Shown here one piece after another: positions 61,245-62,548 of a stretch of DNA of 64,000 nt (position 1 is its first letter; every line of letters begins with the position of its first letter). The notes under the pieces were generated by a model. It saw only the letters and a list, made by a program, of their open reading frames with translations. It ran no database searches and was not told the origin of the DNA. The stretch is from Sphingobacteriales bacterium. Its GTDB lineage: Bacteria; Bacteroidota; Bacteroidia; UKL13-3. Position numbers and translations under genes: made by a program. The stretch spans positions 1 through 64,000 of the forward strand of contig JAJTEN010000004.1 of the NCBI GenBank assembly GCA_021298155.1. Direction: 5' to 3'.

Positions 61245-62156
61245 TTAATTTTTAAATATTCGCAAAAGCCAGGGTAATCGGTTGCGTTTATATCTGTAAT
61301 AATTTCTTTTTTCTGCTCCAAAACTTTTGAAAAAACGAGCAATACCCTCAATTTCAGAACCCTCAAAATCAAGAACCATCCGGTGTTCTGCAAATAAAAA
61401 AATGATATTATCCATGAGGTAGGTCATTGCACCCTTTTCTTTTCCAAGTTCAGAACCATTCCCCAATAAAAAAATAATTCTGTTTTTGTGCGCCAAAAAA
61501 GCTCCAGCAGCAAGTAATTCACCCGATTTATCAAATACACCCTTACAAAATATTTTTTGATGTTCTGATGCCTTTTCCATCAATAGCTGTAAACGTTGGT
61601 AATCTGAATCTTTTACCCCTTTTGTACTTAATGCTTTATGTAATTTGTAAAATAATATTGTTTCAGCATTACCAATACTCTGAATTTGTAGTTCATATTT
61701 CTTGGCCTTTTTCAAATTACGTTTGATTTGAGTAGCATAATCTTTGGCTAATTTTTCATACGACTTTGCTAAATCTAAAACATAATTACGCCTTTTACGC
61801 AATTTTAACCTTGGGTTTAATACCTGGTTTTGTTCATTGAGTTGTATATCTATGAACCTGAATTTTTTTGGAATGGCTGAAAGAAAGTTTTGCAGCAAAT
61901 CTTGTGTCAATACCTGCTTACCAAAAACACCTAATTGTTGCGTAAAAAAAGGCTGACTTAAATAATGAATGAAGTACTTACGGTGAGCGGTAAGGGGCAT
62001 CACCGCAAGATAATCATCCAAAATTAAAGCTTCCCAATTGGGTGAAGCAATATTTAAATACCAACTATAAGCATATACCAAACCATTAGGAGATTGTTCA
62101 ATACAGAGATCCCATTTGGCTTGATCTATTTCTGCATGGCTTAAGTAGCGTACCAA
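61245..62156 (-). CDS. GNAT/FemAB-like putative acyltransferase
   Basis: Its 303 residues have no signal peptide or membrane helix. The pattern of an N-terminal region with a WYLNIASPNWEALILDD-like strand, a basic helix TQIKRNLKKAKKYEL near 143-157, and FYKLHKALSTKGVKD followed by GVFDKSGELLAAGAFLAHKNRIIFLLGNGSE suggests the double-GNAT fold of FemAB-type transferases. The substrate is unknown. The start is a TTG at 62156, since the first ATG is about 68 codons later. It sits between the DUF3127 gene (8 bases) and ppx (3 bases). Confidence 0.65.
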   Translation of the reverse strand: MVRYLSHAEIDQAKWDLCIEQSPNGLVYAYSWYLNIASPNWEALILDDYLAVMPLTAHRKYFIHYLSQPFFTQQLGVFGKQVLTQDLLQNFLSAIPKKFRFIDIQLNEQNQVLNPRLKLRKRRNYVLDLAKSYEKLAKDYATQIKRNLKKAKKYELQIQSIGNAETILFYKLHKALSTKGVKDSDYQRLQLLMEKASEHQKIFCKGVFDKSGELLAAGAFLAHKNRIIFLLGNGSELGKEKGAMTYLMDNIIFLFAEHRMVLDFEGSEIEGIARFFKSFGAEKRNYYRYKRNRLPWLLRIFKN

Positions 62157-62164
62157 AGTATTTA

Positions 62165-62548
62165 CTAGAATGGTAAGTCGTCTGTACTGGTTTCTTGGTT
62201 GTACGATTCTGGCTCAGTATGATTCATTGGTTCATCTGAGATTCCGGCCTGACCAGAAGAAGCTCCACTTGAACCAACTGGTTCAATGCGCCATGCGTTA
62301 ATATTTGTAAACCATTTGCCTTGGTATTCGCGCGACTCAATGTTTAAAGAAACCTTTACCTCATTCCCAGGTACATACTTCTTTATTTCTTGAACCTTTT
62401 CACCCATTAAACCAATACATATTTTCTTTGGATAAGCCTCTTGTGTTTCCACAATAAATTCTTGTTTAACCCAGTCTTTTCCTGCCTTACTGGTTCCGGT
62501 AGTGCTTGGCAATATTTGAATAATTTTGCCTGTGATGTCTAAAGCCAT
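62165..62548 (-). CDS. DUF3127 OB-fold-like protein with SSB-type acidic tail
   Basis: It has 127 residues. The body (about 1-95) opens MALDITGKIIQILPSTTG and contains VKQEFIVETQEAYPKKICIGLMG and VKVSLNIESREYQGKWFTNINAWRIEP, the pattern of DUF3127 and of OB folds. A low-complexity Ser/Gly/Glu linker leads to the C-terminus DDLPF, which closely matches the tip of single-stranded DNA-binding protein (DDDIPF) that recruits repair proteins. A single-strand-binding or SSB-partner role is inference. It is the first gene of an operon with the acyltransferase-like and ppx genes. Confidence 0.82.
   Translation of the reverse strand: MALDITGKIIQILPSTTGTSKAGKDWVKQEFIVETQEAYPKKICIGLMGEKVQEIKKYVPGNEVKVSLNIESREYQGKWFTNINAWRIEPVGSSGASSGQAGISDEPMNHTEPESYNQETSTDDLPF

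Follow-up and report, generated by a model that had tools for sequence, protein, structure and literature searches.

A DUF3127 Protein with an SSB-Like Architecture Carries the Only SSB Docking Tip Found in a Bacteroidota Genus with Tailless SSBs

We analyzed a 64,000-nucleotide stretch of DNA from a Sphingobacteriales bacterium (GenBank assembly GCA_021298155.1, contig JAJTEN010000004.1, positions 1 to 64,000), referred to here as the window. An ATG-started open reading frame (ORF) on its minus strand, running from position 62548 to 62165, encodes an SSB-like DUF3127 protein of 127 amino acids (MALDITGK...NQETSTDDLPF). A preliminary description of this DNA had reported a DDLPF end on this protein, and this was confirmed, with the ORF terminating in STDDLPF and a stop. 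The protein matched PF11325 (DUF3127) over residues 5 to 89 (E = 8.8e-33, 112.8 bits, Pfam gathering cut-off of 27) and phrog_4932 over residues 3 to 127, tip included (E = 2.7e-27, profile positions 1 to 117 of 117). PHROGs labels this phage family "single strand DNA binding protein," and its profile matched all 67 DUF3127 members that we aligned. The statement in the preliminary description that DUF3127 has no assigned function is therefore partly outdated, since PHROGs calls the phage family an SSB and PMC8004638 names a phage SSB with a DUF3127 match. A search of NCBIfam with the window protein gave no match, and its only sequence match in the PDB, HtpG (E = 0.33), was attributed to chance.

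Three parts can be distinguished in the protein: an OB-fold body of the SSB/PriB type (residues 1 to 91, positions 62276 to 62548, minus strand), supported by AlphaFold2, Foldseek, and VIA-align; a linker that is predicted to be disordered and is unconserved (residues 92 to 118, positions 62195 to 62275, minus strand), supported by pLDDT and column frequencies; and an SSB-Ct-like tip, ETSTDDLPF (residues 119 to 127, positions 62168 to 62194, minus strand), supported by the alignment and the C termini of homologues. Eight bases downstream of the gene lies a TTG-start mechanical ORF (positions 61245 to 62156, minus strand), which bears a weak resemblance to FemAB, with an E value of 3.1e-4 that misses the cut-off, and is followed by a Ppx/GppA phosphatase gene; cotranscription of the DUF3127 gene with this ORF is possible. 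Gene order around DUF3127 differed between the window and a plasmid-annotated Parabacteroides record, the only two compared.

We then considered the body. AlphaFold2, run with the 67-sequence alignment, gave mean pLDDT values (in blocks of ten) of 87 for residues 1 to 10, 95 to 96 for residues 11 to 90, and 51 to 65 for residues 91 to 127, with the linker at 51 to 53. The model contains strands at residues 3 to 12, 16 to 19, 25 to 35, and 42 to 48, a helix at 49 to 55, and strands at 63 to 75 and 78 to 90, and the body is thus predicted to be a five-stranded OB barrel that is SSB-type at the superfamily level. All of the best 50 PDB matches in Foldseek were SSBs, PriB, or Rim1 (a mitochondrial SSB), with the PriB entries 1woc, 4apv, and 2ccz ranking alongside the SSBs; comparison with a viral library also supported an SSB/PriB fold. 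VIA-align gave Z values of 11.8 for Rim1 (root mean square deviation of 2.2 over 88 residues), 11.2 for PriB 4fdb, and 11.1 for the Salinibacter SSB 5odn; because Z values within 1 of each other were treated as ties, SSB and PriB are indistinguishable by fold.

At the sequence level, the window protein did not match PF00436 (SSB; gathering cut-off of 26 bits) at E values up to 1. Matches below the cut-off were obtained with DUF3127 proteins from two phages (17.2 bits, E of about 2e-4) and from the bacterial genome G290 (20.9 bits), and 1 of the 67 aligned members matched PF00436 with an E value of 2.6e-4 in a scan in which unrelated families reached values as low as 9.1e-4. Comparison of the DUF3127 and SSB body profiles with hhalign was also weak (probability of 9.8 percent, E = 0.0033), so the link between DUF3127 and SSB rests on the predicted fold, the phage context, and PHROGs. 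The net charge of the body is low (median of 0 across the 67 members, +2 in the window protein), which counts against the reading of DUF3127 as an ssDNA-binding protein.

Next, we looked into how well the tip is conserved across DUF3127 homologues, a check that the preliminary description had proposed. Among 112 homologues (distinct in their last 100 residues, 11 of them from phage or plasmid records only), 111 ended in PF; the seven residues before the PF included at least one acidic residue in 111/111 of these and at least two in 110/111. The one homologue without PF is a plasmid copy from Runella (L238), in which other sequence replaces the C terminus. This copy (L238:5001-5570) lies near tra genes on a conjugative plasmid, and its reading frame runs on into that sequence in place of the tip. 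In the alignment of 67 sequences, P126 and F127 were the only invariant columns, and the mean frequency of the most common residue was 0.54 in the body (residues 3 to 89), 0.24 in the linker (residues 93 to 121), and 0.93 in residues 123 to 127. As for the background frequency of such ends, DUF3127 was the only one of the 71 mechanical ORFs of at least 60 amino acids in the window to end in PF. Of a further 947 ORFs with 100 or more amino acids in the loci analyzed, five did, four of them with at least two preceding acidic residues; one of these four is the SSB of G323 (L371) and three are phage proteins annotated as primase/helicase. These results indicate that the acidic PF tip of DUF3127 is beyond chance. 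DUF3127 has both a predicted disordered linker and a conserved acidic PF tip, the two features by which an SSB-Ct is recognized, and the proposal that it copies the architecture of SSB (an OB-like body, a linker, and an acidic tip) is strongly supported by the predicted fold, the predicted disordered linker, and the PF terminus of 111/112 homologues. A lack of tail conservation, which the preliminary description had named as grounds for refutation, was thus not observed, and its idea is right in kind.

SSB-Ct-like acidic tips (EKEDEVPF or DDNSDVPF) were also observed at the ends of phage proteins annotated as primase/helicase from DUF3127-bearing regions (L227:9315-11270, L232:7495-9324, L233:9234-11108, and L236:6417-8246, all on the plus strand). 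Acidic tails of this sort are also known from T7 gp4 and gp2.5.

DUF3127 was matched in 122 of 50,697 phage records and in 6 of the 72,556 records of a plasmid collection. In 8 of 10 phage regions, which are not ten independent cases because several of the phages are close kin, genes annotated as exonuclease, RecT, NinG, RusA, or primase/helicase lay within 6 kb of DUF3127; the remaining two had no clear replication neighbor. All 10 phage copies ended in PF, preceded by at least two acidic residues in nine and by one in L236. Neither the nine phage records searched (all of the ten except BI-TP1) nor the one plasmid record searched had a PF00436 match above the cut-off, and the only two weak PF00436 matches in the searched phage records were to the DUF3127 gene itself. 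The SSB annotation in at least one phage record derives from PHROGs.

We next evaluated the ordinary SSBs of the same genome (G000). It encodes two PF00436 SSBs, both of which are tailless: one, near a recA gene, ends in LGGKEKKVA, and the other, between mutY-like and gldE-like genes, ends in GTHKSQEEKQ. Judged from their sequences, the neighbors are presumably RecA, MutY, and GldE. Searches of the whole genome with the patterns D-x-x-P-F-stop and [DE]-x-P-F-stop, which do not see tips with another residue fourth or fifth from the end, gave 3 and 18 matches, respectively, some of them with TGG in place of the stop, and besides DUF3127 none lay in an open frame of more than 52 codons. One match to the pattern, DILPF at G000:C51:90623, was rejected, as it lies in a frame of only 11 codons opposite one of 938 codons.

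The same held across the genus (g1). The tip was absent from all 40 PF00436 SSBs found in 19 of its genomes, some of which are only 68 to 88 percent complete and one of which has 8 percent contamination, and the DUF3127 protein ended in DDLPF in 19/19; in this genus, an SSB docking tip was found only on DUF3127. In the sister genera of the same family, an SSB ending in DDLPF or GDLPF was present in five of six (G314, G316, G317, G318, and G319), and the SSB of the sixth (G315) ended in PIEPPF, a doubtful tail. A mutY or gldE gene adjoins the tailless SSB gene in each of the three g1 genomes checked (L053, L376, and L379) and also adjoins the tailed SSB genes of the sister genera at L374, L375, L130, and L118, but was not found beside that of G318 (L120). 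This shared neighborhood indicates, by gene order, that the same SSB gene lost its tail in genus g1.

Across the phylum, DUF3127 was present in 171 of 296 sampled genomes and missing from 125. Among the listed genomes of the class to which G000 belongs, with G000 counted, it was found in 72/73, where the 105 unlisted negative genomes were assumed to lie outside the class since the list is ordered by kinship. DUF3127 was accompanied by one to five PF00436 matches per genome. The single listed class member without DUF3127 (G292) has a mutY/gldE-linked SSB that ends in DDLSF (L300), but its two other SSBs are tailed.

Tailless SSBs also occur outside the genus. Of the six genomes in family f4, four (G012, G210, G265, and G281) combined a single tailless SSB with a DUF3127 protein ending in DDLPF, and in G321 (family f53) two tailless SSBs accompanied a DUF3127 protein ending in DTDLPF. 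The other two f4 genomes, G277 (L159) and G095 (L314), have a second, divergent SSB that ends in DDLPF and is perhaps of mobile origin. Two further class members, G326 (L119 and L372) and G333 (L122 and L373), have only tailless SSBs, two each.

We compared the two traits across genomes, with G323, G326, and G333 set aside. A tailed DUF3127 was present in all 24 genomes that have only tailless SSBs and a known DUF3127 status, an association that is suggestive but no proof, because the 24 genomes represent only two or three evolutionary events. Conversely, a tailed SSB was present in all 21 DUF3127-negative genomes examined (20 of the 125 from the phylum sample plus G334); in this scoring, a terminal PY was taken as a tail (G033 L307 and G214 L090), the INDLPF ends of G068 and G218 were counted as tailed although they fall below the strict count of two acidic residues, and for several genomes in which a tailed SSB had already been identified, only part of the SSBs were read. 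Because DUF3127 keeps its tip where the SSB is tailed too, this tip is more than a substitute for a lost SSB tail.

Of the docking partners predicted in the preliminary description (RecO, RecQ, PriA, and Exo I), we searched 19 genomes for RecO and PriA and found both in 19/19. According to PMC5531588, the SSB-Ct pocket of Klebsiella pneumoniae PriA (KpPriA) is formed by Trp82, Tyr86, Lys370, Arg697, and Gln701. We aligned the PriA of G000 with those of 18 other genomes and part of E. coli PriA, whose numbering is apparently one off that of K. pneumoniae, and judged neighboring columns by eye. The positions opposite Trp82, Tyr86, and Lys370 were conserved in the PriA of G000; in the C-terminal part, where the alignment is uncertain, Arg697 was absent and Gln701 was replaced by Lys, giving at most three of the five pocket residues. 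Of the 19 PriA proteins, 10 matched a strict Trp-Tyr motif pattern (6/8 in the genus and 4/11 elsewhere), and the Lys370 region and the C-terminal columns did not separate tailless from tailed lineages. As relatives with tailed SSBs showed no clear difference, the pocket comparison speaks neither for nor against docking. RecO gave a single match in the PDB, over part of the protein (E = 0.0013).

With respect to known systems, PHROG 4932 is the phage side of DUF3127, with a likeness over the full length that includes the tip; its label covers phage proteins and is silent on the chromosomal family and on the loss of SSB tails. DUF3127 has the predicted OB topology, the disordered linker, and the acidic PF tip in common with the bacterial SSB (PF00436, SsbA type) but differs from it in scoring under the PF00436 cut-off and in its short body of about 91 amino acids. 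In Bacillus subtilis, unlike in genus g1, a tailed SSB is retained within the same family, namely SsbA. The tailless SSBs of the genus resemble other tailless SSB paralogues such as B. subtilis SsbB, which is described as tailless in PMC3976300. That paper also reports that the annotated SSBs of Anabaena are truncated and tailless and that a "hypothetical protein" with an OB fold and an acidic tail, All4779, is proposed to be the main SSB. This situation parallels that of genus g1 by analogy, All4779 being a different protein of 182 amino acids. Furthermore, a PriB fused to an SSB tail (PriB-SSBc) gains affinity for ssDNA and stimulates PriA (PMC8509808); this chimera has the layout of DUF3127, and natural PriB is described there as having no tail. 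A full-text search for DUF3127, PF11325, and phrog 4932 returned only PMC8004638, which describes a Pantoea phage SSB with both SSB-like and DUF3127 domain matches. A literature search that covered few subscription journals found no publication describing SSBs of Bacteroidota that have lost their tails, and PMC5016991 and PMC7077304 added nothing on the question.

Taken together, we consider it probable that DUF3127 is a second, divergent SSB and that in the tailless lineages it supplies the only docking tail found. The fold and the phage context point to ssDNA binding, and the SSB/PriB-type OB body would bind ssDNA either alone or mixed with SSB, with a flexible linker leading to the SSB-Ct tip. 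The tip would then dock into pockets of genome maintenance proteins (e.g., RecO and PriA) and recruit repair and restart enzymes. In most genomes examined, DUF3127 would work beside a tailed SSB. In genus g1 and in at least one, probably two, other lineages, it is the sole SSB-like protein found that could present a tip, and there it would be expected to have taken over the hub role and to recruit proteins to ssDNA, either by itself or in mixtures with the tailless SSBs. That the two jobs of SSB are divided in genus g1 and in one or two Bacteroidota lineages, with the tailless PF00436 SSBs coating ssDNA and DUF3127 recruiting, is a more tentative proposal, to which we give somewhat less than an even chance. 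If it is true, a distantly related protein has effectively acquired the tail function of SSB.

A reading that overlaps with this best explanation, and one that we regard as a serious possibility if less than an even one, is that the tailless SSBs do the coating and that DUF3127 binds the SSB-DNA complex, as a hetero-oligomer or side by side, acting mainly as a donor of tails in trans with little affinity of its own for ssDNA. The nearly neutral body, the stronger conservation of the tip than of the body, and the tailed DUF3127 in every tailless-SSB genome of known DUF3127 status all fit such a division; the nine phage records that carry DUF3127 and have no PF00436 match above the cut-off suggest instead that it acts solo, unless the host SSB serves there. 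It is unlikely that DUF3127 is a PriB-like factor that acts at replication restart with its tail holding PriA. The PriB structures that rank with SSBs, the stimulation of PriA by the PriB-SSBc chimera, and the presence of PriA in all genomes searched would suit this role, but SSB and Rim1 fit the body equally well, the phage neighbors RecT, exonuclease, and NinG point to recombination as well, and DUF3127 is tailed where PriB (PMC8509808) is tailless and on this count does not group with PriB.

Two other readings bear on the tails themselves. DUF3127 could be a decoy or regulator whose tail, for example, competes with SSB for partners and whose body does not bind DNA, as a conserved tip on a linker that would allow free movement might suggest; we consider this improbable, since it would have no competitor in the genomes in which DUF3127 bore the only tail found and since the OB body, too, shows conservation (mean of 0.54). 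Least probable of all, and very doubtful in our view, is that the tailless state of the SSBs is an assembly artifact and that a tailed SSB exists in these genomes and was missed. The genome of the window is 98.72 percent complete, G306, G307, G311, G312, and G313 are 68 to 88 percent complete, and the tail patterns cover most tips but not all, which leaves some room for such an artifact. Against it, all 40 SSBs over the 19 genomes of the genus are tailless, including the mutY/gldE-linked copies in the three genomes checked, and the single SSB of family f4 is also tailless in the one-contig genomes G210 and G281.

DUF3127 is near universal among the listed genomes of the class and yet almost without literature, and a role as an SSB would change how replication and repair are read in these bacteria. 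Moreover, a genus whose SSBs are tailless is a natural experiment on whether a separate protein can supply the SSB tail, a central hub of genome maintenance in bacteria.
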